Positions 4,575 to 30,283 of a stretch of 30,770 bases of DNA are shown in pieces. The position numbers were made by a program, and so were the translations under genes. The stretch spans positions 1 to 30,770 of the IMG/VR virus record IMGVR_UViG_3300025132_000020; one strand, 5' to 3'. The notes below the pieces were generated by a model, which was not told the origin of the DNA, made no database searches, and saw only the letters and a list, made by a program, of their open reading frames with translations. The DNA is from a virus. Position 1 is the first letter of the stretch. The number at the start of each line of letters is the position of its first letter.

Positions 4575-5513
4575 ATGCCTTTACAATTTGGACGATCAGG
4601 CTTTATCAATTTAGGGGAAGAATCCAGCTACGGTTCGGCCTCATCTTTGACAGTGACAAATAGAATTGTGAGCGCAAGCTTGGCAGAGTCACAAGAGCGG
4701 TCAAGAAAGTCATTTTTAACGCAAAGCGGCGCAGCTTTTTCAGTCGGTCACTTTGATAACTTTCTCATGGTTGGTGGTTCTGTTGAACTTCCTTTGCTCT
4801 ATGAAGGATCAGGACTACTCATCAAAGCAGCATTGGGATCTGTTACCACAGCAGGAGCGGGCCCTTCTTATACGCACACCTTTGCAGCATCTGCCGATCT
4901 ACCCAGTTTGACCGTTGAGTTCCAAAGAGGTACGGGATCAAGTGAAAAGTTCTTGGGCTGCATGGTTTCAAGTATCTCTTTCAGTGGGGCAGCTGGTGAG
5001 GAAATTATGATGAGCGTTGACTTTATCGCTCAGGACGCAAACACCCGAACAGGAACAGCAAGCTCCACTTTTGGATCTGGTCGTCAAGTGTTCCACTTTG
5101 AGGCGGGTACACTGTCGTTTGGTGGTAACACTTACAATGTCAGATCCTTTGAGTGCACCATAGACAACAAGCTCGAAAGGCGGCAGGTGCTCGGAGACAA
5201 GAAGACACTTGAGCCTGCTATCAGTGATGTGCGGGAGGCTATGTTTAACCTCACGCTTGAAATGGAAGACGATAACCTGTATAACGCTCAACTAGCTGAT
5301 ACCACATCGGATGCGGTTCTTGTGTTCACCAATTCAGACAGTGACAGCATCACTTTTACGCTCAAAAATGCCTACATAACGGACTACAGTGATCCTGTTG
5401 CTACATTCGGCGCTTTGGAGCGTTCTGTTACCTTTATGGGCGAAGCTGACAGCAGCAACGAGGCGATCAGCATTGTGATTGTGAACCAACAAAGCTCAGC
5501 AGTTGCTAACTAA
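4575..5513 (+). CDS. Major tail (tube) protein
   Basis: 312 residues from ATG 4575 after TAGGAGAATAG. The start (MPLQFGRSGFINLGEESSYG) is typical of tail tube proteins, which open with a short strand and a G.E..YG turn. The body is made of beta strands: a long strand pair around VEFQRGTGSSEKFLGCMVSS, then ISFSGAAGEEIMMSVDFIAQ and a C-terminal Ig-like pattern. It follows the terminator and precedes the chaperone and tape measure genes, the normal place for the tube protein that polymerises around the tape measure. In this genome the usual contact to the chaperone gene is broken by a minus-strand cassette. Confidence 0.8.
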   Translation: MPLQFGRSGFINLGEESSYGSASSLTVTNRIVSASLAESQERSRKSFLTQSGAAFSVGHFDNFLMVGGSVELPLLYEGSGLLIKAALGSVTTAGAGPSYTHTFAASADLPSLTVEFQRGTGSSEKFLGCMVSSISFSGAAGEEIMMSVDFIAQDANTRTGTASSTFGSGRQVFHFEAGTLSFGGNTYNVRSFECTIDNKLERRQVLGDKKTLEPAISDVREAMFNLTLEMEDDNLYNAQLADTTSDAVLVFTNSDSDSITFTLKNAYITDYSDPVATFGALERSVTFMGEADSSNEAISIVIVNQQSSAVAN

Positions 5514-5553
5514 ACGAAAAAAGGCCCTTTTCAGGGCCGATCTTCTTTGGTTG
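5509..5553. repeat. 45-bp inverted repeat shared with 24216-24260
   Basis: The reverse complement of 5509-5553 is identical to 24216-24260 over 45 bases. It contains the terminator stem and flanking bases that need not be conserved for termination. This marks the 3' edge of a cassette that occurs twice in opposite orientations. Confidence 0.95.
5515..5538 (-). terminator. Rho-independent terminator of the - strand gene (also between convergent genes)
   Basis: On the - strand the sequence reads GGCCC TGAAA AGGGCC-type stem followed by TTTTTT (plus-strand A run 5515-5522, stem 5523-5538). The T-tract is on the - side, so it mainly ends the small gene 5825-5556. In the + direction the stem is followed only by TCTTCTTTGG, so it may partly stop transcription from the tail tube gene. 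Confidence 0.8.
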
Positions 5554-5825: not shown

Positions 5826-5858
5826 TTTGTTATCCTGTTGTTTGGTGTTTGTACTTTA

Positions 5859-5886
5859 ATAATACCATCTACACTATGAACCGCAA
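5859..5886 (-). promoter_or_regulatory. Sigma70-like promoter of the 5825-5556 gene
   Basis: On the - strand: TATAAAC, then -35 TTGCGG (5886-5881), a 16-base spacer and -10 TATTAT (5864-5859). The 62 bases from 5893 to 5832 match 23581-23642 at 59 positions. Confidence 0.75.
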
Positions 5887-5905
5887 GTTTATAATGTAAA
5901 ATAAA

Positions 5906-6721: not shown

Positions 6722-8968
6722 ATGGCTTCAAATCTAGTTGAATACATTTTAGCGGTCGACTCTGATGGCGCTGTTTCTGGTCTTAAAAAGGTTGAGAAGC
6801 AGGCCGAAAAGGCGGAAGACAAGCTTGATAAGACGGGCAAAAAGGGCAAGCAGGCAGGGGATGATCTGAAAAAATCATTTTCAGCAGCTGCGGCCAAGGT
6901 TGCGATCGGTGCAGCAGCAATTGCTGCTGCCACCGCTGTAATTGTAAAACTTGCGGGGGCTGTGAAAGCTTTCACGATGGAATCAGTCGACATGATCAAC
7001 GACCTTGGTGATATTGGTAATCGATCAGGTATTGCGGCCGATACGATCGGGGCGTTAAAGGGCGCTTTTGTTGCATCTGGTCAAGAAGCTTCGGCTGTTG
7101 TGGGAGTGCTTGATGTGACTGCAAAGAGGTTCGCTATGCTCTCAAAGGGGAGCAAAGAAGCTGAAGATGCTTTTGCCAAATACGGGATCACAATAAGAGA
7201 TCAAAACGGTGATCTGAGATCAAATAATGAGCTACTTCTTGACAGCATGCGAGTTATTCAGGGCCTCGGTGAAACATCGTTGAGATCTAGAGCCTCACTT
7301 GAGCTTCTTGGGCGTGGAGGGCAGCAGCTTAGTCAGGCGTTAGGGGCAGGTAACTTTGATAAATTTCTTGAATTCGTCAATGAATTCGGCGCTGTTGCGG
7401 GGCCTAAAGCGGCAAAGTCTGCGGCATTGGTTCAAGACTCAATATCTCTTTCAGAGGTTGCGCTTGAGGGCTTCAGAGAAGAGGTTGTCATGTCTTTGGG
7501 CCTTATGGACAGGCTAGCATCTAGCCTCAACATGGTCATGATGTTTTTTGCTGGCATGAAAGAGGTCATTGAGGTCAACAAAGATATAATTACTGAGTTT
7601 TTCGACGCAGCAATTAGCATGGGTCAAAATTTCTTAGGGGTTTTAAACTCCCTCTTTAATGATGGATTTGAGCCAATGAGCGAAGGTTTAGCGGGTGTTG
7701 TTGAGGGCGTTGCGGCACTGGGCGCTGCGCTGCTTAGGCACTTGATTAAGCCTATAGCTCTAGCGCTTGGACACATGCTTTTATTCGCCAAGCTATCTGA
7801 TCAGGTATTCGGCACCCAGCTTGCTGGCTCTGTTTCAAGGACACTTGAGAGTCTCGCAAAGCTACACGATGCACTTGATCCAAGCACTGCACGCGGCTTT
7901 AGAACCTTTCAAGCCTTTCAAGTGGGGGCCGCTAAATCCATGAAGCTCTTTGGTGAGATCACAGGAGGAGCCACAACCAGAGCAGGCCAATTTGAAGAGA
8001 CCTTAAAAGATGTAAATGAGGCGCTCGACGAAACAACAGAAAAGATCGATCACCTTGCTGATTCAGCAAATGTGCTCAATGGTGTATTGTCCAAGCTCGG
8101 CCTGCCTCGCGGTCTTCAGTTTGGCGGCATCAAAGACGCGACAGCACAAGTTGAGAAGCTAACACAGGGCCTTTTTGCGCTCGGTGAGCGTGGCGCTTTT
8201 GCGGGCAGTGGAGGACGACAGAGCAGCGCGACGCAGGGCAATCTTGACATCATGGCTCAGAATGTAGCAACGGCGCTCAATGTGGCAGCGCCGCAAATCG
8301 GGGCAGCTATTGCGATCTCTGCTGGCCTTGTGCAACTGGCTGAAAAGTTAGGCACTATGGGTGACAGTATCGAAGAGATCAAGAACGAGCTTACAAAGTC
8401 AGTGCAGGAGCGGGCCGAGGTTATCGAGCGGGGCCTTCAGTCCTTGCCACAAATACTTAATGATGTATTGCCGCACATTGTGCAGGTGCTCGCAGATGCG
8501 ATCATATTTGGCTTTGCAAAAATAATAGCTCAAAACATCAACGAGCTGTTAACCGGATTGCGTCAAGTGCTCACGAAAGAAGGCAGGCAGGAGCTTAGAA
8601 AAGAAAGAAGCGAAGGGATCACACTGGGCGATCGTGCTGGTGAATTCCTAAAACGCATGGGCGTGCTGGGTGATATAGCATTTGAAGGTATGCGGGCGGG
8701 CGGGAGGATACCCAGCGCCCGATCAGGTCTGAATTTTACGGGTGAAAATGCAGGTCTGCACCTGTTACACAAGAATGAATTCGTTGTGCCTGAAAGCGGA
8801 CAAGCACCGCAAAGCGTGAAGCGTGCTATGGGCGGCATGGGCGGATCGGTTAACATTGTGGTCAATGCTCAGGTTGTGGAGCAAAATGCAGTTGATGAAT
8901 TGGTGCGACAGATTGAGCGTAGATTCAGAACATTCGGGCAAAGCACATCGCCTCTATTCGGGAGTTAG
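6722..8968 (+). CDS. Tape measure protein
   Basis: 748 residues, starting at ATG 6722, the longest protein in the genome. It determines tail length and is ejected on infection. The N-terminus is a charged coiled coil (GLKKVEKQAEKAEDKLDKTG) followed by an Ala-rich hydrophobic stretch (IGAAAIAAATAVIVKLAGAV). Further hydrophobic segments occur near residues 325-360 (VEGVAALGAALLRH) and 515-540 (QIGAAIAISAGLVQLAEKL), which are typical of tape measure proteins. The C-terminal part is helical, then has a Gly-rich segment (PSARSGLNFTGENAGLHLLH) close to the motif found at the end of many tape measures. By the usual 1.5 Angstrom per residue rule the tail would be about 110 nm long. Confidence 0.9.
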   Translation: MASNLVEYILAVDSDGAVSGLKKVEKQAEKAEDKLDKTGKKGKQAGDDLKKSFSAAAAKVAIGAAAIAAATAVIVKLAGAVKAFTMESVDMINDLGDIGNRSGIAADTIGALKGAFVASGQEASAVVGVLDVTAKRFAMLSKGSKEAEDAFAKYGITIRDQNGDLRSNNELLLDSMRVIQGLGETSLRSRASLELLGRGGQQLSQALGAGNFDKFLEFVNEFGAVAGPKAAKSAALVQDSISLSEVALEGFREEVVMSLGLMDRLASSLNMVMMFFAGMKEVIEVNKDIITEFFDAAISMGQNFLGVLNSLFNDGFEPMSEGLAGVVEGVAALGAALLRHLIKPIALALGHMLLFAKLSDQVFGTQLAGSVSRTLESLAKLHDALDPSTARGFRTFQAFQVGAAKSMKLFGEITGGATTRAGQFEETLKDVNEALDETTEKIDHLADSANVLNGVLSKLGLPRGLQFGGIKDATAQVEKLTQGLFALGERGAFAGSGGRQSSATQGNLDIMAQNVATALNVAAPQIGAAIAISAGLVQLAEKLGTMGDSIEEIKNELTKSVQERAEVIERGLQSLPQILNDVLPHIVQVLADAIIFGFAKIIAQNINELLTGLRQVLTKEGRQELRKERSEGITLGDRAGEFLKRMGVLGDIAFEGMRAGGRIPSARSGLNFTGENAGLHLLHKNEFVVPESGQAPQSVKRAMGGMGGSVNIVVNAQVVEQNAVDELVRQIERRFRTFGQSTSPLFGS

Positions 8969-13394: not shown

Positions 13395-13413
13395 TGCATA
13401 AATGTATTATGCA
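13395..13413. repeat. Small palindrome at the fibre gene stop
   Basis: TGCATAA (13395-13401) and TTATGCA (13407-13413) form a perfect inverted repeat with a 5-base loop, overlapping the stop codon of the fibre gene. No T-tract follows, so its role (end protection, protein binding) is unknown. The 98 bases 13309-13406 hold no gene. Confidence 0.5.
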
Positions 13414-15074
13414 AGATATCGAACCTCTAGACTTTCACCAGCTGCAACAGCAGATCCAAAAGTTACAGTAGTAGTGGATCCATCAGTGGCGCATGTGTAC
13501 TCACTATCATCAGATGGGGAGGAAGCAACAAGCTTACAAAGAAGACCATTGCGGTAAACCATAACCATATTGAGCAAAGTTGAAGCGCAATTGTTAGCAA
13601 GGTTAAACGCAGTCAATGATCCGTTTGGAGTAAGGATATCCTGTCGTGCTTGAAAGCTCAGCTTAGCAGGAGTTACACCAGAGTTAGCAAGTTGGCCAGT
13701 TCCAACACCAAGATCGGAAACCTTAATACCAGAAGCTGATCGGGCAAGGGTAGAGCCATCAAGATCTGCCTTAAATTGACCAGATACAGCCTCAACACCA
13801 TCACCAGCCATAGCAGACACGAGATCAGCGATAGACTCCTTTTTTGAAGCATTGCTGTCATCAGCGTCAACAATAGCGATCGAGTCATTAGCAACATTGA
13901 CAGCGCCAGCAGCCAAAGCATTAAGATCGACACCAAAAGTAACAGCAGCAGACCCATTGTAGCTTGCTGAGATAGCCAAACCAGAGTTAGCAGACAAGCT
14001 AAGATCGGCTAGGTTTGTGCCTAGTGTTTTTCCTGATATCGTCGAAGCGGCTAATTTGTTAACAGCTATATTTGCGCCCGCTCCGATCTGAGCATCAACA
14101 AGACCACCAACATTAAACGCACCTGAAGACGCGGTTAAACCTGTTCCGGCCATAGCTGTCGCTAAATCAGCGATAGACTCAAGACCAGTAGCATCAGCAT
14201 CAGCATCATAGATGGCAATGCTATCAGCGCTAGCATTAACAGCAGCAGCAGACAAGCTAGAAAAGTCAAGTCCGAAAGTGCGAGAGGTTGCCCCAGTATA
14301 AGATCCCGACAAAGCTAGACCGGAGTTAGCTGCAAGGCTCAAAGCTGCAAGGTTCCCGCCCAGAGTCACGCCTGAGATCGTGGAAGCTGCAAGCTTAGAC
14401 ACAGCAATAGCGGCACTGTTTGAGATTTCAGTGTTTGAGATCCCACCAGCATTAACTTTGACCCCTGATGCACCAACTGCAAGAGTAGACCCATCGAGAT
14501 CGACGCTTAGCGTATCCCCGGTTTTAGATAATCCGTCACCAGCTGCGGTGCTGTCTTGGCCGCTATAGATGCCAAAAGTGATATTATTTGTGCCAACAAC
14601 ATCCGATCCCGCTGCACTTGTACAAACATACTTTAATCCGCCCGATACTGTTCCTGCTTCGACGTATGCAAACGCACCAGCCTCTGAGGATCCAGCAGCA
14701 AAATCAGAAGATCTAGCCCAACCAGAAGCTGAGCTGATGTAGATTCCATTTTCAGACTGAGTGCTCTGGTTCTTCACCAGAATTCTCTTATTTGCTGTGA
14801 CAGACTGTCCGTCTATGCTTTGATTTCCGCTCAAAGTAATGTTAGCTGTGGTAGCAACAAAGACACTTTCTTTGTAGTCAAGACCAGCAGCAACGAGATC
14901 AGCGTAAGCTTTAGCGGCGGCCGCTGTTACCAGCTTTGTTGATGATGCTGAGGATCCAAGATCGGTTTCGATGTCTGCTGACTTAAGCTTTGCATAAGCA
15001 ACAGCGCCCGAACTTATTTTAGCTTCGACGACAACGCTGTCGACGAGCTGATTACTTCTGATTTGAATAGCCAT
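13407..15074 (-). CDS. Tail fibre protein with duplicated ~100-residue repeat
   Basis: 555 residues on the - strand; start ATG 15074 follows TAGGAGCTAAAT. The N-terminus (MAIQIRSNQLVDSVVVEAKI) is typical of phage fibre proteins. The middle carries two tandem copies of a segment of about 97 residues (about 216-311 and 328-426), which share KLAASTISG, LSANSGLA, and ESIADL..AMAG. A shorter LDGSTLA..ASG.KV block occurs at 193-207 and 438-452. The C-terminal 80 residues resemble the neighbouring 15084-15362 protein (VMVYRNG, then GESLEVRYLA). This Ala/Ser/Gly-rich, repetitive, trimer-like architecture suggests host-range determination. Low-complexity codon use makes recombination between repeats likely. 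Confidence 0.85.
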   Translation of the reverse strand: MAIQIRSNQLVDSVVVEAKISSGAVAYAKLKSADIETDLGSSASSTKLVTAAAAKAYADLVAAGLDYKESVFVATTANITLSGNQSIDGQSVTANKRILVKNQSTQSENGIYISSASGWARSSDFAAGSSEAGAFAYVEAGTVSGGLKYVCTSAAGSDVVGTNNITFGIYSGQDSTAAGDGLSKTGDTLSVDLDGSTLAVGASGVKVNAGGISNTEISNSAAIAVSKLAASTISGVTLGGNLAALSLAANSGLALSGSYTGATSRTFGLDFSSLSAAAVNASADSIAIYDADADATGLESIADLATAMAGTGLTASSGAFNVGGLVDAQIGAGANIAVNKLAASTISGKTLGTNLADLSLSANSGLAISASYNGSAAVTFGVDLNALAAGAVNVANDSIAIVDADDSNASKKESIADLVSAMAGDGVEAVSGQFKADLDGSTLARSASGIKVSDLGVGTGQLANSGVTPAKLSFQARQDILTPNGSLTAFNLANNCASTLLNMVMVYRNGLLCKLVASSPSDDSEYTCATDGSTTTVTFGSAVAAGESLEVRYLA

Positions 15075-15083
15075 ATTTAGCTC

Positions 15084-15362
15084 CTATGAGGTTGAATTAT
15101 AATCTGCGATCAAGCTCTCGCCCGATACAGGAGCAGCAAACGAGATCGTGAACCCGCTCGCTGTTTCTGCCACAGATGAGCCGCTTTGTCTGACACCATT
15201 ATAATAGACTCTAACTGAGTTTGAGCTAAAACTTTCTGAAATGACAAAGCTCGTCTTTGAGCCATTCAATTCACTACTAAAATCCTGCGTTTTTTGCGTA
15301 CCAGCAGCACCACCGCCGCCACCCGTACCACCTTCATTATTAAAAGCGCGCGCGATGCTCAT
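15084..15362 (-). CDS. Small fibre-associated protein with C-terminal beta module
   Basis: 92 residues when started at ATG 15362, which overlaps the stop of the preceding gene (ATGA), so translation is coupled. After a Gly-rich linker (EGGTGGGGGAAGTQKTQDF) it has a module with SELNGSKTSFVISESF, VRVYYNGVRQSGSS and ISFAAPVSGESLIADYNS. The same order of motifs occurs in the last 80 residues of the adjacent tail fibre, so the two genes share a duplicated beta-sandwich module. The product is probably a fibre tip or fibre-attachment protein. An upstream ATG at 15374 is less likely. Confidence 0.7.
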   Translation of the reverse strand: MSIARAFNNEGGTGGGGGAAGTQKTQDFSSELNGSKTSFVISESFSSNSVRVYYNGVRQSGSSVAETASGFTISFAAPVSGESLIADYNSTS

Positions 15363-15769
15363 GGGGCCTCCCAAGTGATCGTCACTTTCTCAACATCGCA
15401 AGATCCCTGATCAACTTTAAAGAACACATAACACTTGTCTGTTAGGTCGTTGCTCATTGTCACAATCACATCGAGCATATAGAGCGCTGTGCCATCTGTC
15501 GCAGTGGTTATCCCTGCTTGGATCGTGCTTTGAGTATCAGTTAAAAAGAAGTTGTTGCCCGCAGCATCCTCACTGATTGAGATCGTCAGCTTTGTTGGGG
15601 TGCTCGCATCGCTCAAATTGCTAAGAAAAATCTGAACAAGTGAGACTTTGGCCAGATAGACAGCTGTACGAGGCGAATAGTTCAGATCAACCTCGATGCC
15701 TTTTGATGCGTCGTAGGCTGTCCCTATGCCGGTTACTGTTGTTGTTGATCGTCCTTTATCCATGCGCAT
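15359..15769 (-). CDS. Unknown beta-rich protein, first gene of the fibre operon
   Basis: 136 residues starting at ATG 15769, seven bases after CAACAGGAGC. I do not recognise the family. It is beta-rich with Thr/Ser-rich strands (STTTVTGIGTAYDASKGIEV, LTISISEDAAGNNFFLTD, YMLDVIVTMSNDLTDKCYVF) and ends in VTITWEAP. Similar small beta proteins encoded just upstream of fibre genes often link fibres to the tail tip, so a virion role is inferred from context. A longer frame up to 15829 is open but has no ribosome site. Confidence 0.7.
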   Translation of the reverse strand: MRMDKGRSTTTVTGIGTAYDASKGIEVDLNYSPRTAVYLAKVSLVQIFLSNLSDASTPTKLTISISEDAAGNNFFLTDTQSTIQAGITTATDGTALYMLDVIVTMSNDLTDKCYVFFKVDQGSCDVEKVTITWEAP

Positions 15770-15808
15770 AATATAGCTCCTGTTGTCATGGTGTGCTCTA
15801 CCAATAAC

Positions 15809-15840
15809 AAAAAGTTTAGAGGGCAGCAAACGCCACCCTC
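15809..15840 (-). terminator. Probable terminator of the exonuclease transcript
   Basis: On the - strand the sequence forms a 9-bp stem (GAGGGTGGC with GCTGCCCTC, two wobble pairs, loop GTTT) followed by TAAACTTTTTG. It would end transcription of the exonuclease gene before the fibre operon. The segment 15770-15908 has no gene; it also holds an unused AACAGGAG-type site on the + strand near 15860 and a small AGCAGG/CCTGCT stem near 15889-15906. Confidence 0.55.
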
Positions 15841-18328: not shown

Positions 18329-18386
18329 GTGATCGTCTATGCGGATAACGGTTTTAAAAAAGATCAGTTATTTATATGATATAAAC

Positions 18387-18415
18387 TTGAGAAATATAAA
18401 AGACCGGTTTATAAT
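18387..18415 (+). promoter_or_regulatory. Sigma70-like promoter P1 of a small-gene cassette
   Basis: TATAAAC-type extension, -35 TTGAGA (18387-18392), 17-base spacer ending in CCGGTT, -10 TATAAT (18410-18415). Same arrangement as the promoter at 19544-19572. The 115-base stretch 18329-18443 holds only this promoter. Confidence 0.8.
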
Positions 18416-18443
18416 AGAGTATACCTAAACAACAGGAAACACC

Positions 18444-18635
18444 ATGAGCACAATCAAAATTAACAACCAAGAATATAATATCTTAAATACAGATGAGCTT
18501 AGATACTGTAAGATGATCACCTTAGAGGGCAAAAGAGGAGCGCAAGCAAAGCTTTTTATCTATGAGAACGGATCTCTCAAGCTTATTAAAGGCAAGTCAC
18601 ACAAGAAAGTAACCATCAAAACAATAGAAATGTAA
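18444..18635 (+). CDS. Small basic unknown protein (gene A of cassette 1)
   Basis: 63 residues from ATG 18444, following AACAGGAAACACC. Basic, beta-like pattern (IKINNQEYNIL, AKLFIYENGSLKLIKGK, KVTIKTIEM) with no Cys cluster or membrane segment. No known family. It is the first gene after promoter P1 and is followed by a GNRA-loop hairpin and another small gene, an arrangement that recurs near 19.6 and 30.2 kb with different proteins. Confidence 0.65.
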   Translation: MSTIKINNQEYNILNTDELRYCKMITLEGKRGAQAKLFIYENGSLKLIKGKSHKKVTIKTIEM

Positions 18636-18640
18636 CAACC

Positions 18641-18673
18641 ACCAGCCCCGAAAGGGGCACCACCCAACAGGAG
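18641..18673 (+). promoter_or_regulatory. GNRA-loop hairpin plus ribosome site leader (copy 1)
   Basis: GCCCC-GAAA-GGGGC (18645-18658) followed by the constant ACCACCCAACAGGAG and the ATG of the next gene at 18680. Copies 2 and 3 have 6-bp stems with GCAA and GAAA loops. No T-tract follows, so this is a probable mRNA structural element between genes A and B rather than a terminator. Confidence 0.75.
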
Positions 18674-18679
18674 AAACCA

Positions 18680-19015
18680 ATGTATATTTATCGACACGAC
18701 ACAGCACAGATCGGACAGTTAGAGCTCAAGATCAAAACAGGCGAGAACATCGCATCAGACATGATCCGCAGCTACTATCACACAGGCGACAAGAGGATCA
18801 CCTTCAACAAGCACATGAATATGTTTGAGTGCTCAGAACACGACTATCAAGAGATCGCCTCATTGTTCTATCACATCGAGTTTTTAAGCGCCTCATTTGA
18901 TGCTTTGGGCTGGACACCAGCGGATCAGGGCGACTTTATGCAGCAGTATGATCATCTGTCCTTGTGGGATGGGTACTATGCCGCTGTTAATGCAATGTGT
19001 GAATTAATCGACTAA
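18680..19015 (+). CDS. Unknown acidic small protein (gene B of cassette 1)
   Basis: 111 residues from ATG 18680 after CAACAGGAGAAACCA. Acidic and rich in aromatic residues (IRSYYHTGDKRITFNKHMN, YQEIASLFYHIEFLSASFDA, GDFMQQYDHLSLWDGYYAAV). No membrane segment. I do not recognise the family. The size, acidity and early promoter resemble host-takeover or anti-defence proteins of phages, but no motif supports this. Confidence 0.65.
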   Translation: MYIYRHDTAQIGQLELKIKTGENIASDMIRSYYHTGDKRITFNKHMNMFECSEHDYQEIASLFYHIEFLSASFDALGWTPADQGDFMQQYDHLSLWDGYYAAVNAMCELID

Positions 19016-19030
19016 TCAACAGGAGCAATC

Positions 19031-19408
19031 ATGAAAAACTATCTAACATCTAGAATAAAGCGCTCAGGAGCGGTCATTGTCTGCGTTATCTGCCCGTTCT
19101 GCGGCTATTCGCAAAGGGAGCCTTTAAGGGGCATGGATCGCACTGTCTGCGGGCGCTGTGGGGCATCAAGTGAGAAGGGGCGATACTACACCAAGGATCA
19201 ACTGCTCGATCGCATCCACGAGCTAAGAAGGGCGGTCGACCTTAGACACAAGGCCGCCATTCAGGATCTGAGTTGTGGCATCTTGCCCTCCAACAGAGGA
19301 CAGAGCCTAAGACAACAACGGGATCAGCTTAGGTGCTTAAAAGATGCAGCTGGTCAATACGGAATAACAACAGAACAACAAGAAAAAAGAGGAGCTAGAA
19401 ATGACTGA
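19031..19408 (+). CDS. Zinc-ribbon small protein
   Basis: 125 residues from ATG 19031 after CAACAGGAGCAATC. A zinc ribbon near the N-terminus has C-x2-C knuckles at C21-C24 (CPFCGYSQ) and C40-C43 (CGRCG). The rest is a basic helical region (LLDRIHELRRAVDLRHKAAI, LRQQRDQLRCLKDAAGQYG), consistent with nucleic-acid or protein binding. No enzyme motif. Its end overlaps the next small gene by 8 bases. Confidence 0.6.
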   Translation: MKNYLTSRIKRSGAVIVCVICPFCGYSQREPLRGMDRTVCGRCGASSEKGRYYTKDQLLDRIHELRRAVDLRHKAAIQDLSCGILPSNRGQSLRQQRDQLRCLKDAAGQYGITTEQQEKRGARND

Positions 19409-19541
19409 ATTTATGAGCAATGTGCATTATTTTATGCAGGATCATCATTTAATTATCAAATTTTTATTTATTATGATCGGCGCTGCGGCCTTCGGTTTTG
19501 TGGTGAATATGGATAAAAGATTAAAAAAAGATAGGTTATAA
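19401..19541 (+). CDS. 46-residue single-membrane-segment protein
   Basis: ATG 19401 follows GGAGCTAGAA with good spacing. The product has a hydrophobic segment of about 20 residues (IIKFLFIMIGAAAFGFVVNM) and a basic end (DKRLKKDRL), so the C-terminus should face the cytoplasm. Start overlaps the previous gene and the TAA at 19539-19541 overlaps the TATAAAC of promoter P2. Too small for simple family assignment; early membrane proteins of this type may affect the host envelope or superinfection, which is a guess. Confidence 0.6.
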   Translation: MTEFMSNVHYFMQDHHLIIKFLFIMIGAAAFGFVVNMDKRLKKDRL

Positions 19542-19543
19542 AC

Positions 19544-19572
19544 TTGAGAATTATGAAGAACCGGTTTATAAT
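19544..19572 (+). promoter_or_regulatory. Sigma70-like promoter P2 of a small-gene cassette
   Basis: -35 TTGAGA (19544-19549), 17-base spacer ending in CCGGTT, -10 TATAAT (19567-19572). The downstream leader 19570-19604 matches the - strand leader 30220-30186 at 34 of 35 positions. Confidence 0.85.
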
Positions 19573-19605
19573 AGAATATAACCAATGAGCAACAGGAGCT
19601 TAAAA

Positions 19606-19920
19606 ATGTCAGATACTTACACCTTAGACAACAGAGTAGAAGAGCACATAAACCCTTCCGAAAGGGAAGCCTACATGAAGCAATATTTTAATGCACTGCA
19701 TTTGAAAGTAGTCGACTACAGGCATCTTCAGTGTTGGGGCATGTTTGTTGTTACAAGCGATGGTTCAGTCTATAAAGTTACAGCAGAAGATAGAAATACC
19801 ATGCGTATTGAGGACACATATGCACAAATTTCACGTGTCCATTGCCCAGAAACGGTCAACAAAGTACTTGATGCTTATGTCACGATAGACAGAGTGCAGC
19901 GCGGTCTTGATCTACACTAA
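19606..19920 (+). CDS. Unknown small protein (gene A of cassette 2)
   Basis: 104 residues from ATG 19606, seven bases after CAACAGGAG; the upstream ATG 19585 precedes the ribosome site and is rejected. The sequence is mixed alpha/beta (REAYMKQYFNALHLKVVDYR, CWGMFVVTSDGSVYKVTAED) without recognised domains. The central part G.FVV.SDGSVYKVT looks like a small beta-hairpin domain. It stands between promoter P2 and the second GNRA hairpin. Function unknown. Confidence 0.65.
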   Translation: MSDTYTLDNRVEEHINPSEREAYMKQYFNALHLKVVDYRHLQCWGMFVVTSDGSVYKVTAEDRNTMRIEDTYAQISRVHCPETVNKVLDAYVTIDRVQRGLDLH

Positions 19921-19925
19921 TAATC

Positions 19926-19960
19926 ACCAGCCCCCGCAAGGGGGCACCACCCAACAGGAG
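19926..19960 (+). promoter_or_regulatory. GNRA-loop hairpin plus ribosome site leader (copy 2)
   Basis: GCCCCC-GCAA-GGGGGC (19930-19945) followed by the constant ACCACCCAACAGGAG, then AAACCACC and ATG 19969. Stem is one pair longer than copy 1 and the loop changes from GAAA to GCAA, both GNRA. Confidence 0.8.
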
Positions 19961-19968
19961 AAACCACC

Positions 19969-20106
19969 ATGATCTATTCAAATCAAGAAACACGCTATCT
20001 AGCGCAGAAAGAGAACCCCAGCTGCTTCTCATTTTATAAAATAGAGGGCGGGTATGTCTGCTTTTATTGCGCTCAAAGCCTAAGCACATGGCTCAATCAA
20101 CGATAA
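19969..20106 (+). CDS. 45-residue unknown protein (gene B of cassette 2)
   Basis: ATG 19969 follows CAACAGGAGAAACCACC. The translation has 45 residues with ETRYLAQKENPSCFSFYK and GGYVCFYCAQSLSTWLNQR; three Cys (one CxxC-like pair FYCAQ is incomplete) do not form a full zinc site. The perfect leader and the TAA at 20104-20106 placed shortly before the next leader make it a credible gene. No family recognised. Confidence 0.6.
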   Translation: MIYSNQETRYLAQKENPSCFSFYKIEGGYVCFYCAQSLSTWLNQR

Positions 20107-20129
20107 CCACCACCAAACAGGAGAACACC

Positions 20130-20378
20130 ATGAACAGATCAATAAAACAAAAAGTAGAGCAAATAACATCCCAATACCAAAGCATTTCTGAGTGTTTGGA
20201 GCACCTAAAAGCAGATTTTGAAAAAGTCTATTTTTTAGATGATCAAATTTCTAAGTTAAACACCAATGCTCACATTGTCGCTTTATTGGGTAGGCGAAAA
20301 ATGACAGAGGATATTGTAAATCAGATTAAAGACTTACAAAAAATGAAGAGTCAAATTCTTAACAGGAGAACACCATGA
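20130..20378 (+). CDS. Unknown coiled-coil small protein
   Basis: 82 residues from ATG 20130, preceded by AAACAGGAGAACACC; a longer frame from 20067 lacks a ribosome site. Predicted helical throughout (KQKVEQITSQYQSISECLEH, then VNQIKDLQKMKSQILNRR). The last codons form the ribosome site (AACAGGAG) of the next gene, which overlaps by four bases, so both are coupled. No known function. Confidence 0.65.
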   Translation: MNRSIKQKVEQITSQYQSISECLEHLKADFEKVYFLDDQISKLNTNAHIVALLGRRKMTEDIVNQIKDLQKMKSQILNRRTP

Positions 20379-20776
20379 ACAACGAAACATTACAGAACCT
20401 AAGAAAAGCGGGCTTTATCGTGAAGCTACAAGGCAAAGAGTTTGTTCTCTTTGCAGGGCTTCAAGTCCTTGCTAGAGAGCTGGGCCTTAAGAGCGTCAAC
20501 ACTGAGCTTGTAAGCATTGATAAAGACTCTCAGACCACGATCGACGGTGAGCAAACCGTAATAACAAAGGCGACAGGCTTAACGATATTTAAGGCCACTG
20601 TTAGCGGCGATATGGGCACATTCACCTCGTATGGGGACGCATCCCCTAAAAATGTTGGCAGGATGATCGCTCCACATCTGATCAGAATGGCCGAGACTAG
20701 GGCGATCGCTCGTGCGCTTCGGCTCTATTGTGCGATCGGCATGACCAGTCTTGAAGAACTAGGGGGTGGACAATGA
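20375..20776 (+). CDS. Rad52/ERF-like single-strand annealing protein candidate
   Basis: 133 residues from ATG 20375. N-terminal part with FVLFAGLQVLARELGLKSV, a beta segment with TKATGLTIFKATV and a conserved-looking C-terminus FTSYGDASPKNVGRMIAPHL then IRMAETRAIARALRLYCAIG. The arrangement of beta strands followed by an R..ETRA.ARALR helix resembles Rad52/ERF-type annealing proteins and related phage and archaeal proteins, though shorter than usual (often 150-250). If right, it anneals single-stranded DNA during replication-linked recombination. It could otherwise be an unknown nucleic-acid binding family. It overlaps the next gene by 4 bases. Confidence 0.45.
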   Translation: MNNETLQNLRKAGFIVKLQGKEFVLFAGLQVLARELGLKSVNTELVSIDKDSQTTIDGEQTVITKATGLTIFKATVSGDMGTFTSYGDASPKNVGRMIAPHLIRMAETRAIARALRLYCAIGMTSLEELGGGQ

Positions 20777-21047: not shown

Positions 21048-21323
21048 ATGACACACTTTAATCGATTTTTTAAACACCAGCTTGAACTAGCCAGCTGCTC
21101 TATCAATCAGAGCGAGCTTTGTAGGCAGTCAGAAACAACATGGCCATGTCTGTGGAAATGGGCAACAAAGCCAATCAAAGAGCGCCCCAAGGATCAAACG
21201 CTTTACAGGGTTTTTGTTGTCTTGGCGCCTTATGTCGGCTCTACTCCTCAGAACCTTATGATCGAGGCGAATCAGGCTATTCTCGAAGACTTCTTTGCAA
21301 GAATGGAGGTGCTCCATGGGTGA
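21048..21323 (+). CDS. Small helix-turn-helix-like regulator candidate
   Basis: 91 residues from ATG 21048 after ACAGGAGATAAC. The first half (FFKHQLELASCSINQSELC, then CLWKWATKP) has the length and spacing of a Cro-like helix-turn-helix, with S-I-N-Q-S-E-L-C as the first helix region and W.CLWKW as a second recognition helix. The rest is helical and may dimerise. It ends 8 bases inside the start of the methyltransferase gene. It could regulate the early operon. The family assignment is weak. Confidence 0.4.
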   Translation: MTHFNRFFKHQLELASCSINQSELCRQSETTWPCLWKWATKPIKERPKDQTLYRVFVVLAPYVGSTPQNLMIEANQAILEDFFARMEVLHG

Positions 21324-23124
21324 GAGTATCGGAACATATACACCAATAGAGGATCTGAAAGAATGGGACAATAACCCAAGGCACAACGATCACGCTGTTG
21401 ATGAGGTTGCAAAATCAATCAAGCGCTTTGGTTTTGCTTCGCCCATCATAGCAAGGAAGGAAGACAACATGGTAATTGCTGGTCATACCCGACTAGCAGC
21501 GGCGCGCTCCTTGGGTCTTGACACTGTACCCGTTCGCTTTGTGGATCTTGACCCTACAGAGGCGCAGTTGCTTGCTTTGGCTGACAATAAGATCGGCGAG
21601 ATTGCAGAATGGGATCAGGATCTGCTCAGTGAGGTTTTGACGGATCTCAAAGATGAGGATCTAAGCGGTATCGGTTTCTCTGATGCTGAGCTTGAGGAGC
21701 TGATCGAAGAGGCCCAATTTGAGCCGCTGGACAATGTCATAGAGGGCGATCTTGAGGATCAGGACTGGGATCAAATGCCTGATCAATCGGTCAAGATCGC
21801 CAAAGCTGGCGGGGTTTATCAGATCGGCGGGCAACAGGTCGCATGCGGTGATTGCGTTGAGGTTATGCGCTCCTTGCCGGATAACAGTATTGACTCAATC
21901 GTTACAGATCCGCCGTACGGCATATCTTTCATGTCAAAAGACTTTGACAGTCCATCTAAGATGCTCGGCCAGATGAGCACAGGACACGAGCAAAGGGGCG
22001 CATTTGCTTATGGTGGGACTCATTCAAGAGGATACGCTGATAACGACAATGAGATCTTTCAAGCTTGGTCTGAACGTTGGCTCACTGAGGCTTTCAGGGT
22101 TTTGAAAGATGGTGGTCACATCATCGCATTTGCTGCTACGAGAACAGTCCACAGGTTAGCGGTTGCGGTTGAGGATGCAGGTTTTGAGATAAGAGATCAG
22201 CTTGGTTGGTGTTATTACTCTGGCTTTCCTAAGAGCATGGATATTTCTAAGCAGCTTGATAAAATGGCGGGGGCTGAGCGTGAGGTTATTGGATCAAAAA
22301 CAAATTGGGGAGAAGCAAGTCAAAGCACACCTAATTGCGCAAATGGATCATGGGATATAACAAAACCAGCCACCAAAGAAGCTCAATATTGGCAAGGTTG
22401 GGGAACTGCCTTAAAACCTGCTTATGAGCCTTGTGTGCTTGCTCGAAAACCAATCGCTGAGAAGAATGTTGCTAGTCAAGTTTTGAAGACTGGGACGGGG
22501 GCGATCAATATAGATGCTTGTCGGTTTGGTTATGGCGATCCTTGTTGGATAGGGCCTCAGAATGAAAATTTATCAAGACACAATAATTCATCTGATAATT
22601 ACAGCCCAACAAGCTACAGTCTAGCTCCAAACGAAAGAACCCTATATAACAGGTCTGAATTAGCGGGTGGTAGATGGCCCGCTAACCTCTACCAATGCCC
22701 GAAACCATCACGATCAGAGCGTGAGGAGGGACTGACAGATCTTGAGAGCGAAAGCTCAGCTGCTGTTGAATATCATGGGGAAAATTCTAAAGCTCTATCT
22801 TCACCAAGAGCAGGCGCGGGAAGAACAGCGGGTGAGGTTAAAAACTTTCACCCAACAGTCAAACCCGTCAATCTTATGAGATGGCTTATTCGTCTTGTGA
22901 CACCCGTTAACGGTCTTGTCTTAGAGCCTTTTCTTGGATCGGGGACTACTGGAGTGGCCTCAAGTCTTGAGGGGTTCAGATCGATCGGTATTGAGAGAGA
23001 ACCTGATTATGCTGATATTTGTTTGCAGCGGATCAAGAATGCTGAAGGTGTCGATATTGTAGAAATAGAGGCTTTAAAGATTGAGTGCTTAGAGGAGGAT
23101 GTATGTCTCGAAGAACAAAGCTAA
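21316..23124 (+). CDS. ParB-like domain fused to beta-class DNA (N6-adenine/N4-cytosine) methyltransferase
   Basis: 602 residues from ATG 21316 after GGAGGTGCTCC; a frame start at 21295 is less likely. Residues about 4-95 form a ParB/sulfiredoxin-like domain (KEWDNNPRHNDHAVDEVAKS, GHTRLAAARSLG, then ALADNKI). The methyltransferase part has motif IV DPPYG at 198-202 and, near the end, the AdoMet site FLGSGTTG at 539-546 with motif X HPTVKPVNLMRWL before it. Motif IV before motif I defines the beta order of CcrM-like enzymes. The target sequence cannot be read off. ParB-methyltransferase fusions are common in phages and may mark phage DNA against restriction. The end overlaps TerS by 22 bases. 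Confidence 0.88.
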   Translation: MGESIGTYTPIEDLKEWDNNPRHNDHAVDEVAKSIKRFGFASPIIARKEDNMVIAGHTRLAAARSLGLDTVPVRFVDLDPTEAQLLALADNKIGEIAEWDQDLLSEVLTDLKDEDLSGIGFSDAELEELIEEAQFEPLDNVIEGDLEDQDWDQMPDQSVKIAKAGGVYQIGGQQVACGDCVEVMRSLPDNSIDSIVTDPPYGISFMSKDFDSPSKMLGQMSTGHEQRGAFAYGGTHSRGYADNDNEIFQAWSERWLTEAFRVLKDGGHIIAFAATRTVHRLAVAVEDAGFEIRDQLGWCYYSGFPKSMDISKQLDKMAGAEREVIGSKTNWGEASQSTPNCANGSWDITKPATKEAQYWQGWGTALKPAYEPCVLARKPIAEKNVASQVLKTGTGAINIDACRFGYGDPCWIGPQNENLSRHNNSSDNYSPTSYSLAPNERTLYNRSELAGGRWPANLYQCPKPSRSEREEGLTDLESESSAAVEYHGENSKALSSPRAGAGRTAGEVKNFHPTVKPVNLMRWLIRLVTPVNGLVLEPFLGSGTTGVASSLEGFRSIGIEREPDYADICLQRIKNAEGVDIVEIEALKIECLEEDVCLEEQS

Positions 23125-23537: not shown

Positions 23538-23587
23538 GGACGGGCGGGCTTGTTGAAAAAATAGTTATACTTTTCTTTGCTATAAAC

Positions 23588-23615
23588 TTGCGGTTAATAG
23601 TGTACATGGTATTAT
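23588..23615 (+). promoter_or_regulatory. Sigma70-like promoter of the TerS-TerL cassette
   Basis: TATAAAC then -35 TTGCGG (23588-23593), 16-base spacer, -10 TATTAT (23610-23615). The 62 bases 23581-23642 match 5893-5832 on the - strand at 59 positions. Confidence 0.75.
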
Positions 23616-23647
23616 TAAAGTACAAACACCAAACAACGGGATCGAAA

Positions 23648-24215: not shown

Positions 24216-24260
24216 CAACCAAAGAAGATCGGCCCTGAAAAGGGCCTTTTTTCGTTTAGT
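24216..24260. repeat. 45-bp inverted repeat shared with 5509-5553
   Basis: Identical to the reverse complement of 5509-5553. Marks the 3' edge of the cassette between TerS and TerL. It includes bases on both sides of the terminator stem. Confidence 0.95.
24231..24252 (+). terminator. Rho-independent terminator of the cassette gene
   Basis: GGCCCTGAAAAGGGCC followed by TTTTTT, 17 bases after the stop of the cassette gene. It would separate the cassette from TerL, so TerL must be transcribed by read-through or from an unseen promoter. Confidence 0.85.
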
Positions 24261-24275
24261 GGGATATATTGTCTT

Positions 24276-25760
24276 ATGAGCACCACATCAGATCGAACAA
24301 AGCTGGAAGAGTCGCTAACAGTACGACAGGAGCTACTCGCCTATATAAAAGCTTATCCTTTGGCCGCTGGTCGGCTTTGGGAGCCTTTCTGCTGTCGTTG
24401 GGACGGGTTGAGCGATCAGAGCGACAGGTTGCGCGGTTGTGGGCGAAGAATGCAGCGTGTAGGGGCTGGACTGTATCGCTGTGATCATTGCGACATCACC
24501 GAAGAACGCACCTCTCAGAAAGAAGCAATCCGATCTTTAGCGGAAGAAGCCACACTGATCAGCGGAGGCAACAGATCCGGCAAGAGCCACATGGGCGCAC
24601 AGCTGGCGGTTGCATTTGCGGCGGGTAAAGATGAGCGCTGGGTTATGGACTGGATCACACTCAATGAGATCCCGCCTGAGCTTATTCCTGATCGACCTTC
24701 GACTGTGTGGTGTGGCTCTTTGAGCTACAAAGACGGGCTTGAATACATGCGGCCTAAATTGGATCTCTTCCTGCCGACGAACACAAAGCGAATCCGGTGG
24801 AACAGTCAAGATCGGGCTGTTGCCATTTTGCCCAACAAAGGGCGGATCGTGTCTATGTCTTGTGATGCAGGGCGTGAGGCTTTTCAGGGTGGATCCGTGT
24901 CGATGGTTTGGCTTGATGAGGAGCCGCCTGAGCCGGTCTTTGAGGAGTCAATACTGCGGACAGTGGATCAGCGGGGGAGGGTTATTGTGACTGCTACACC
25001 GCTCAAAGGCCTAAGCTGGATGTTTGATCGCTTTGTTGAGAAACCGCCAGCAGGCTTTGCACGTGTTCAGATCTCGGGGCTTGATAACCCCTACATTTCA
25101 AGCGTCAAAATGAGGCGTGCTGTTAGCCATCTGAGCGAAGAGGCGCAGCAGTCTAGGCTCTTTGGTGAGTTTGCAGCTCAAACTGGTCTTATCTATTCAG
25201 AGTTTAGACCAGATCGCCACATAACCAAGATCGAAGAGTTACCGGATCATTGGCGCAGGTTCCGATCGATTGACTTTGGAACCTCACACCCGTTTTGCTG
25301 CTTGTGGTTTGCTGAGGCTCCAGCTGGTTATCTTGCTTCTGATCCGGTGTTGATTGTCTATGATGAGCTGTACTGGACAGAAAAGACCACATTAGAGAGC
25401 GGCAGGGAGATCTTGAGGCGCTCAAAGGGGCAGGATTTTGATTGGACTGTGGCGGATCCTGAATCTAGAGATGGGAGGCTCACATTGGCGCGAGAACTTG
25501 ATCTGAGAACCTTGGCGGCGCCAAAGCATTTTGGAGTGGTGGAAGGGATCAATCAAGTCAAAGAATTTCTTGCTTCTGATCTTGAGGGCAAAGTGAGACT
25601 GCTTATAAAACCGAAATGCAAGAACTTAATCAAAGAGCTTAAGCTCTACAAGTGGGATCAGAAAAGCAAACAGGACAAACCAATCAAGAAATACGATCAT
25701 GCGCTTGATGCTTTGCGCTATCAGATCATGCAATACAAGCGATTTTTAGCTCACAGGTGA
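24276..25760 (+). CDS. terL: Terminase large subunit (TerL)
   Basis: 494 residues from ATG 24276; earlier starts in the frame overlap the terminator. ATPase motifs: Walker A GGNRSGKS at 97-104, Walker B VWLDEEP at 211-217, motif III ATP near TATPLKG. Nuclease motifs of the RNase H-like domain: D333 (SIDFG), D394/E396 (ADPES), and D474/D478 (DHALDALRY). A Cys-rich segment before Walker A (about 40-70; CCRWDGL, RCDHCD) may be a small zinc site. The enzyme powers DNA translocation into the prohead and cuts concatemers. Confidence 0.95.
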   Translation: MSTTSDRTKLEESLTVRQELLAYIKAYPLAAGRLWEPFCCRWDGLSDQSDRLRGCGRRMQRVGAGLYRCDHCDITEERTSQKEAIRSLAEEATLISGGNRSGKSHMGAQLAVAFAAGKDERWVMDWITLNEIPPELIPDRPSTVWCGSLSYKDGLEYMRPKLDLFLPTNTKRIRWNSQDRAVAILPNKGRIVSMSCDAGREAFQGGSVSMVWLDEEPPEPVFEESILRTVDQRGRVIVTATPLKGLSWMFDRFVEKPPAGFARVQISGLDNPYISSVKMRRAVSHLSEEAQQSRLFGEFAAQTGLIYSEFRPDRHITKIEELPDHWRRFRSIDFGTSHPFCCLWFAEAPAGYLASDPVLIVYDELYWTEKTTLESGREILRRSKGQDFDWTVADPESRDGRLTLARELDLRTLAAPKHFGVVEGINQVKEFLASDLEGKVRLLIKPKCKNLIKELKLYKWDQKSKQDKPIKKYDHALDALRYQIMQYKRFLAHR

Positions 25761-25762
25761 AC

Positions 25763-26530
25763 ATGAAAAAAACAAAACCATTAAAACCATTTTTTAAGTA
25801 TTACGGGAGCAAATGGAATCTAGCTAGATATTACCATTGCCCACAGTACAAATTGGTTATAGAACCATTTGCAGGCAGTGCTTGCTATGCCCTACATCAC
25901 TGGTCAAAGAATGTAATCCTCAACGATTTAGACGAGAATATATATCAGCTGTGGCATTACTTGATCAATGTTAAGGCCTCCGAGATTAAATCATTGCCCT
26001 ATTTGCAGCCTGATCAAACCGTTGACGATCTTAAAATTTGCAAAGAAGCTAAGATTTTAATCGGATTTTGGATCGGGTTTGCCTGTTCTGCTCCCAAGAA
26101 GACACAGTCTGAAACAGTAACCAAGGCCCAGATTAAACACCCAAACCAATGCCTAACATGGGCCGATCCAGCCAAGCAGAGAATAATTGAACAACTGCCG
26201 AAAATCAGACACTGGAAAATCACAAACAAAAACTATTATCAAATGAAAAACTACAAAGGCACATGGTTTATAGATCCGCCCTATGAGGTCAAAGGGAAAT
26301 ATTACAGAAAATCAAAAGTTGATTATGAGCGATTGTCTATCTGGGCTCAAGATAGGCGAGAGCAATACATTGTTTGTGAGAATAATGGCGCGCAATGGAT
26401 GAATTTTACACCTTTTAAAACAATGCACAACCAACACAGAAAAAACAGAGATGAAGTTGTGTGTAATTTTGGCTTTGGTACAAATACACAACAGATCACA
26501 ATCTGTGATATATTACGCTCAAAGAGGTGA
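25763..26530 (+). CDS. Dam-like (D12 class) DNA N6-adenine methyltransferase
   Basis: 255 residues from ATG 25763 (a GTG at 25757 is also possible). Motif X FFKYYGSKW at the N-terminus, motif I EPFAGSACYALHHW, NDLDE, and motif IV DPPYE at 171-175, in the alpha-class order of Dam/D12 methyltransferases. Composition is more AT-rich than the surrounding packaging genes. It is inserted between TerL and portal, genes that are normally adjacent, so it is probably an acquired moron. The genome has about three times the expected number of GATC sites by hand count, consistent with GATC specificity, but the target is not proven. Confidence 0.88.
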   Translation: MKKTKPLKPFFKYYGSKWNLARYYHCPQYKLVIEPFAGSACYALHHWSKNVILNDLDENIYQLWHYLINVKASEIKSLPYLQPDQTVDDLKICKEAKILIGFWIGFACSAPKKTQSETVTKAQIKHPNQCLTWADPAKQRIIEQLPKIRHWKITNKNYYQMKNYKGTWFIDPPYEVKGKYYRKSKVDYERLSIWAQDRREQYIVCENNGAQWMNFTPFKTMHNQHRKNRDEVVCNFGFGTNTQQITICDILRSKR

Positions 26531-29799: not shown

Positions 29800-29834
29800 C
29801 TCCTGTTGGGTGGCGCCCCCTTTCGGGGGCTGGT
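29800..29834 (-). promoter_or_regulatory. GNRA-loop hairpin plus ribosome site leader (copy 3, - strand)
   Basis: On the - strand: GCCCCC-GAAA-GGGGGC (29830-29815), then GCCACCCAACAGGAG and the ATG of the next gene at 29793. Stem and loop of the same type as copies 1 and 2. Confidence 0.8.
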
Positions 29835-29846
29835 TGATTGTTGAGT

Positions 29847-30185
29847 TTAGTTATTTTCAATATATTTTTCATATGCTACCAGAGGAGCAATTTGCTTCTG
29901 TACATATTTAGGTAAATCCTCAAAGCTACCGTCAAAACCGGTACATCCTTCTCCGTATTCGTAAACCTCGCCCCAGTAGTCATTGTCTTTTGTGATGTGC
30001 TTTTTTACTGATATGTAAGGCATCTCATCAGGATCCCTACCATCCTGAACAGCTTCTTCATGGCTACTTTTGAAAAAGGATAAAGCTTCAAGATGTGGTT
30101 TTGTTGATTTTGGTACAATATCAAAATACATCATATTTTCATCTGGGCTATTTGGCCATATTAAGATCTCATATTCTATTGTCAT
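29847..30185 (-). CDS. Unknown acidic protein (gene A of cassette 3)
   Basis: 112 residues; ATG 30185 follows CAACAGGAGCTTAAA. Acidic, with many Tyr, Asp and Glu (EYEILIWPNSPDENMMYFDI, DNDYWGEVYEYGEGCTGFDG, SFEDLPKYVQKQIAPLVAYE). No membrane segment and no recognised family. It stands against the head operon between the MuF and protease genes, which normally follow each other, and so is an inserted unit. Acidic early proteins of this size often inhibit host or defence proteins; here that is only a hypothesis. Confidence 0.75.
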   Translation of the reverse strand: MTIEYEILIWPNSPDENMMYFDIVPKSTKPHLEALSFFKSSHEEAVQDGRDPDEMPYISVKKHITKDNDYWGEVYEYGEGCTGFDGSFEDLPKYVQKQIAPLVAYEKYIENN

Positions 30186-30217
30186 TTTAAGCTCCTGTTG
30201 CTCATTGGTTATACTCT

Positions 30218-30246
30218 ATTATTAATCAGTATTTTATACATTGCAA
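30218..30246 (-). promoter_or_regulatory. Sigma70-like promoter P3 of the - strand cassette
   Basis: On the - strand TATAAAC, then -35 TTGCAA (30246-30241), 17-base spacer, -10 AATAAT (30223-30218). The following leader matches that of P2 at 34 of 35 positions. Confidence 0.8.
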
Positions 30247-30283
30247 GTTTATATATAAAAAAAACTCAAAATAAATATCATTC

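Follow-up and report, generated by a model that had tools for sequence, protein, structure and literature searches.

Morons are phage genes that carry their own promoter and terminator, and the boundary sequences of lambdoid phages are short conserved sequences at module junctions that have been proposed as targets of recombination. The SAS/ESAS sequences of Cluster K mycobacteriophages consist of a repeated sequence resembling a ribosome-binding site (RBS) at gene starts, with an inverted repeat just upstream of some copies (PMC3203893). In T4-type phages, the motifs called PeSLs combine an early-type promoter with a stem-loop, recur between small genes of unknown function and are proposed to mediate gene shuffling by homologous recombination (Arbiol 2010, Comeau 2014, as described in PMC4503421), and a motif similar to PeSL is reported for the haloarchaeal virus HGTV-1 (PMC3950731). 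The present analysis concerns a viral DNA, IMG/VR record IMGVR_UViG_3300025132_000020 (positions 1 to 30,770, all 30,770 nucleotides of which are referred to as the window), in which repeated regulatory sequences enclose small genes that differ from one relative to the next.

Three units of the window (S1, S2 and S3 in Table 1) are probably slots for mobile regulatory cassettes that are exchanged by homologous recombination at shared arms, as judged from genome comparison. An earlier note on this DNA had described one and the same order of elements (promoter, gene A, GC hairpin with a GNRA loop, constant leader, gene B) near 18.4 kb (+), 19.5 kb (+) and 30.2 kb (-), and all three of these type I units were recovered. 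The promoters at 18380 and 19537, TATAAAC-TTGAGA-N17-TATAAT, agree at sequence level with the sigma-70 consensus at 11 of 12 positions; the third promoter listed in the note is also present but is poor by consensus (TTGCAA-N17-AATAAT at 30253 on the minus strand, 9 of 12), and the list has to be extended by two sites of a second type (type II), at 5893 (-) and 23581 (+), which were found with a promoter matrix. That matrix, trained partly on the same three type I promoters, scores them at 61-67 bits versus 5.8 bits for the best shuffle. The leader ACCACCCAACAGGAG, which the note had called constant, is exact in two units (18659 and 19946), and the third copy (29814, minus strand) differs at one position; with up to three mismatches allowed the leader has seven matches versus 0.5 expected, a number reached by none of 100 shuffles. 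The hairpin leaders of S1-S3 each fold better than all 200 of their own shuffles (z -3.0 to -3.6), have neither a T-tract nor a terminator match, and belong to no known RNA family in an Rfam search. A covariance model built from the hairpins, a check proposed in the note, recovers the three window copies with E values of about 1e-11 to 1e-13, these copies being its training sequences.

The contents of the slots were compared with IMG/VR relatives, namely G001 (29.6 kb, about 87% identical), G002 (29.6 kb, about 70%) and the fragments G003-G010, two of which (G009 and G010) belong to the window's own phage and one of which (G007) is a distant terminase match only. Comparison brings out both replacement and empty slots: S1 holds a different gene in G001 and two genes in G002; S2 is empty in G001 and holds other genes in G006 and G002; S3 holds other genes in G001, G008 and G002; S4 is empty in G001 and holds another gene in G002; S5 holds other genes in G003, G006 and G002 and is empty in G004; and the S6 gene is absent in G001, where one copy of its flanking repeat remains. 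At S5, G001 has a gene for a Mom-like protein alone, and the 3′ end of that gene precedes the cassette in G003. G001 retains gene B at both S1 and S3, and G008 retains it at S3; promoter, leader and B persist at S1 and S3 while A is replaced. These patterns, together with an S2 without an A gene in one phage and the presence of one A gene in different slots, bear out the suggestion that a scaffold is reused for changing accessory content, and further copies of the scaffold do occur in related phages. The proteins had been described as not visibly related, and the A proteins are indeed not paralogues of one another; the possibility that A and B genes are paralogues was rejected, the A proteins being mutually unmatched except for the moved ones and one weak pair (E 0.007).

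Movement between slots is seen for a gene whose 81-aa product begins MINIETTKG: the copies at S1 of G001 and at S3 of G008 are identical at 245 of 246 nucleotides (99.6%), versus a backbone identity of 88.8-92.3% between these phages. The identical block starts inside the promoter, between -35 and -10, and reaches the flank of the hairpin; at the right junctions the flank and the leader ACCACCAAACAGGAG are common to both phages and the stem lengths differ. Under the proposed mechanism, each slot would keep its place in the genome, usually with a host-type promoter and, at S1 and S3, also with the downstream gene B, while an A gene with the leader at its start and the hairpin and leader downstream would be swapped, lost or gained by homologous recombination. 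The recombining sequences would be short ones that the slots have in common: on the left promoter and leader, on the right either hairpin and leader or a terminator. The likely agent would be a single-strand annealing protein of RAD52 type that the phage itself encodes next to S2, and the cargo would be single small genes, presumably expressed early, some of which probably counter host restriction.

Throughout the genome, exact repeats of 18 bp or longer all flank the six variable genes of S1-S6, with one exception, a short palindromic stretch (6911-6930) within the tape-measure gene. Ten of 11 repeats lie no more than 60 bp from a boundary between sequence shared with G001 and sequence not shared with it; random placement puts a mean of 1.35 repeats near a boundary, and none of 20,000 placements reaches 10. 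The S4 and S5 genes end in an identical true terminator, GGCCCTGAAAAGGGCC-TTTTTT. At the level of sequence comparison the genome has at least six fixed slots, five of them with a predicted promoter of their own.

Table 1. Coordinates of the slot features in the window and of the adjoining annealing protein gene.
Feature	Coordinates	Strand	Remark
S1 promoter, type I	18380..18423	+	TATAAAC, TTGAGA-17-TATAAT
S1 gene A, 63 aa	18444..18635	+	81-aa gene instead in G001
S1 hairpin GCCCC-GAAA-GGGGC	18645..18658	+	fold, covariance model
S1 right arm	18654..18679	+	repeated hairpin 3′ strand, leader, RBS
S1 gene B, 111 aa	18680..19015	+	same place in G001, 95% aa identity
S2 promoter, type I	19537..19580	+	promoter matrix, consensus
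S2 left arm	19577..19605	+	29 bp identical to S3 left arm
S2 gene A, 104 aa from ATG after RBS	19606..19920	+	slot empty in G001, other gene in G006
S2 hairpin GCCCCC-GCAA-GGGGGC	19930..19945	+	
S2 right arm	19941..19966	+	26 bp identical to S1 right arm
S2 gene B, 45 aa	19969..20106	+	
S3 promoter, type I, weak -35 and -10	30210..30253	-	
S3 left arm	30185..30213	-	repeat
S3 gene A, 112 aa, acidic	29847..30185	-	replaced in G001, G008, G002
S3 hairpin GCCCCC-GAAA-GGGGGC	29815..29830	-	
S3 leader and RBS	29800..29814	-	
S3 gene B, 96 aa	29503..29793	-	same place in G001 and G008
S4 promoter and left arm, type II	5837..5893	-	32 bp (5837-5868) identical to S5 left arm
S4 gene, 89 aa	5556..5825	-	absent in G001; 80% aa homologue at S3 of G002
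S4 right arm with terminator	5509..5553	-	repeat
S5 promoter, type II	23581..23624	+	promoter matrix
S5 gene, 188 aa	23648..24214	+	replaced or absent in G001, G002, G003, G004, G006
S5 right arm with terminator GGCCCTGAAAAGGGCC-TTTTTT	24216..24260	+	45 bp identical to S4 arm
S6	20116..20383	+	gene 20130-20378 between 21-bp direct repeats (20116-20136, 20361-20383)
Predicted RAD52-superfamily single-strand annealing protein	20375..20776	+	adjoins S2/S6; anchor gene of sister-clade locus

It is unlikely that the repeats are expression signals only, needed by one regulator or by the host machinery, with the A genes changing through unrelated illegitimate events. The arms do contain promoter and RBS, leaders resembling CAACAGGAG stand before many genes (25 matches at one mismatch versus 7.7 expected), and the promoters of a sister clade share a dyad of the GTTG-N9-CAAC type that in one genome is the same at all three sites. 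However, the identity exceeds the functional elements, extending in S4 and S5 over 45 bp that include both flanks of the terminator and over 32 bp of the left arms; a near-identical A gene is found in different slots; and the positions of the repeats coincide with the boundaries of gain and loss.

Another proposal, doubtful as a full account of why the hairpin exists, is that hairpin and leader together form an RNA regulator of gene B, insulating it or controlling its translation or stability whatever A gene lies upstream. The hairpin precedes the RBS by a fixed distance and folds well, and the same place is taken by unrelated stems in the sister clade and by a UUCG or GAAA hairpin in the more distant phage G014. 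However, the energy for opening the RBS is unaffected in silico when the hairpin is removed or broken (3.66, 3.60 and 3.65 kcal/mol), the window clade has a single covarying pair, which is not significant (MAFFT misplaces the gap of the shorter stem), and G002 is without hairpins. Such a regulator is compatible with cassette exchange and competes with it only over the reason for the hairpin. Between clades the position of the hairpin is retained and its sequence is replaced, and the same kind of place can hold a true terminator; the likeliest RNA role of the hairpin would be that of a partial terminator or a stabilizer of the mRNA end.

The gene adjoining S2 and S6 encodes the candidate agent of exchange. 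Its structural model (pLDDT 85) best matches RAD52 (Z 7.5-7.7), Sak of phage 80alpha (7.1), Mgm101 and Red-beta, the structural matches having Z scores of 5.7-7.7, all below 8, over residues 1-124 with no Pfam match, which supports but does not prove that the product is a RAD52-type single-strand annealing protein. Its relatives in Rubrobacter and other assemblies are 40-63% identical and uninformative on the host. Rad52-like phage recombinases have been implicated in relaxed homologous recombination and mosaicism (PMC3945230). Site-specific recombination in the manner of an integron, with the hairpin as recombination site, is very improbable, even if the layout is alike (a fixed promoter and promoterless units of gene and hairpin, zero to two per site). 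No integrase or resolvase family was detected in seven genomes, in searches with positive controls (for the tyrosine recombinase family PF00589, none of seven genomes and 14 of 14 controls), so that known tyrosine and serine recombinase families are largely excluded; in addition, the hairpin sequence depends on the clade, the hairpin is missing in some variable slots, and the slots lie at several places and on both strands.

A sister clade (L125-L137), in which the annealing protein is about 60% identical to that of the window, has a locus between a protease gene and the annealer gene that consists of a promoter, a leader, zero to two small genes, a hairpin GGGAGG-N6-CCTCCC and the leader ACTTACCAAAGGAG; in L129 the locus is empty. 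The genes, named here by the first residues of their products, assort freely: MTNQQK occurs with or without MKAYTI after it, and MNEKMQL precedes MKTYII or, as MNDKMQL, precedes MKIIII. The unit of the sister clade seems to be a gene with a 3′ hairpin because the hairpin follows particular genes; MKTIVK is found both with and without a hairpin. The MKTIVK cassette is present at another site in G020, and the copies are 97.7-99.0% identical across the two places, while the annealer genes of their carriers are only 88-90% identical. A cassette with an ArdC N-terminal domain occurs at two different sites in the clade, including a tail-fibre site in G026 and G029, where its hairpin is followed by seven or eight T residues and forms a terminator. 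The cassette promoters in L125-L137 and L151-L159 overlap the dyad GTTG-N9-CAAC or a similar one, the inner sequence of which differs among phages and tends to agree within a genome, the three sites of G020 being the same; these dyads suggest common regulation and are possibly operators of the repressor type. A short homologue of window gene B3 lies on the annealer side in G011 (L116 636-797), and in L128 a gene related to that homologue, 45 aa long, immediately precedes the annealer gene; because B3 homologues occur in these annealer-side regions, B genes appear to move too.

The phage G014, of which the terminase is 59% identical, represents a third lineage. It has two units of promoter, gene and hairpin with UUCG and GAAA loops and a leader of its own (ACCACCGAGGA or similar); for the UUCG copy, a competing fold in which the RBS is covered is predicted to be equally stable. 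At one end of G014 (L110 1-2600, minus strand) stands a row of four units of promoter, gene and terminator that resembles PeSLs, with near-identical promoters and GCCC-hairpin terminators. This row, and the fit of S4 and S5 to the definition of a moron, would agree with the explanation that ordinary morons accumulated independently and that their look-alike promoters and terminators arose by convergence; that explanation is quite improbable, leaving unaccounted for the near-identical arms within a genome, the clade-specific arms and the movement of one gene between slots. Separately, a hairpin of the same kind, CACCAGCCCC-GACTTA-GGGGC, lies between two small genes in L118 (2440-2465), from a phage that shares no detected protein, and hairpin-like strings in L119-L121 were rejected as copies and taken as chance, apparently being inside a long coding frame that looks terminase-like by eye.

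The A proteins of the window (63-188 residues) have no convincing match in Pfam, PHROGs or PADLOC, and a structure prediction for the S4 protein was discarded (pLDDT 53). The idea that the cassettes carry anti-defence genes therefore finds no match among the window's own A proteins, but gains from relatives: the ArdC N-terminal domain (PF08401, E 1.4e-15) is present in the sister-clade cassettes, and a Mom-like DNA modification protein (PHROG 1384, E 2e-34) is encoded at S5 of two relatives (L012 900-1361 and L022 from its start to about 350, adjoining the terminase gene). A counter-restriction role can reasonably be guessed for no more than part of the cargo. The otherwise unrelated A proteins of S2 in G002 (L014 4379-4639), S2 in G014 (L117) and G014 4692-4865 (L110) have a similar C-terminal motif, approximately F-x-[ST]-x2-EA-x2-[FWY]-[IL], which may reflect a shared small fold.

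Several observations weigh against exchange of cassettes at shared arms. The case is one of sequence comparison, with no recombination event observed directly, and it draws on the window, on two near-complete relatives, on fragments and on groups further removed. S5 has a left-arm repeat 71 bp away from a boundary, and Z scores below 8 for the annealing protein can reflect no more than a common arrangement. The homologue of the S4 gene at S3 of G002 is no younger than the backbone (77.9% versus 79.1% identity); being as diverged as the backbone, it would have relocated long ago. The variable A genes at S1, S2 and S3 of G002 have no hairpins, so that the hairpin is dispensable, and hairpins are also missing at some junctions of the sister clade.

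The first 99 bases of the record (1-99) equal its last 99 (30672-30770), and this direct terminal repeat makes it probable that a complete phage genome is at hand, about 30.67 kb in size and circularly closed or permuted. The 30.7-kb phage has genes for a terminase, a portal, a Mu-F-like protein, head-tail proteins, siphovirus-like tail proteins including a 748-aa tape measure, an endolysin-like protein, an HNH protein, an exonuclease and two DNA methyltransferases (21316-23124 and 25757-26530; PF01555 with PF02195, and PF02086), one of them fused to a ParB N-terminal domain. Its terminase is less than 60% identical to those of recorded phages; the half from 16.5 to 30.8 kb has no DNA-level match among phage records; neither the window, at DNA level, nor two of its A proteins have a relative among isolated phages; and a terminase search of 84,980 species genomes for a host or prophage gave no match. 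The tail-fibre-like region (13407-15829) is poorly conserved among relatives and constitutes a separate hypervariable region.

More broadly, and only tentatively, several lineages of small uncultivated phages might share a dedicated cassette platform with fixed slots, regulated promoters, promoterless units of gene and hairpin that recombine through clade-specific arms, and a resident annealer at the main slot. If so, the platform would be an integron in function without an integrase, keeping counter-defence genes in circulation between phages. Away from the large T4-like phages, for which this was described, the window offers a compact example of a 30-kb phage genome that may be turned into exchangeable slots by short regulatory repeats, and a concrete case of how phages may trade accessory genes. 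A practical rule for these phages is to take any gene between a promoter leader and a hairpin or terminator arm as variable and accessory. Beside the ArdC-like and Mom-like ones, more than 20 of these genes have no assigned function and are candidates for counter-defence screens.

Among the known systems, PeSLs are approached by the repeated sigma-70-type promoters of the window (11 of 12 consensus positions at S1 and S2, 9 of 12 at S3), by the comparative evidence tying its slots to gene shuffling by homologous recombination, and by the succession of terminator and promoter in G014. The stem-loop of a PeSL acts as an intrinsic terminator, a property found in the window at S4 and S5 but not at S1-S3, where no T-tract follows the stem-loop and a second gene comes next. 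Moreover, promoter and stem-loop flank a single gene on opposite sides in the window, the composite motif occurring only in G014, and the phage is one of about 30 kb with a siphovirus-like tape-measure gene rather than a T4-type myovirus. S4 and S5 resemble morons in having a promoter, one gene and a terminator and in being absent or replaced in relatives, whereas S1-S3 have no terminator, and the near-identical flanks of the slots, with genes moving between them, set the window apart from morons. The window units thus appear to work like PeSL elements and morons, but they are not filed as PeSLs because two of the features that define PeSLs are absent. With SAS/ESAS the window has in common a repeated RBS leader at gene starts with an inverted repeat upstream; the 13-bp sequence GGGATAGGAGCCC, however, has no match in the window at up to two mismatches, and ESAS is conserved with a gene family, whereas the arms of the window stay while genes change and promoters are part of the unit. 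The arms of the window differ from the lambdoid boundary sequences in that several slots within a single genome reuse the same ones, which enables genes to move between slots.

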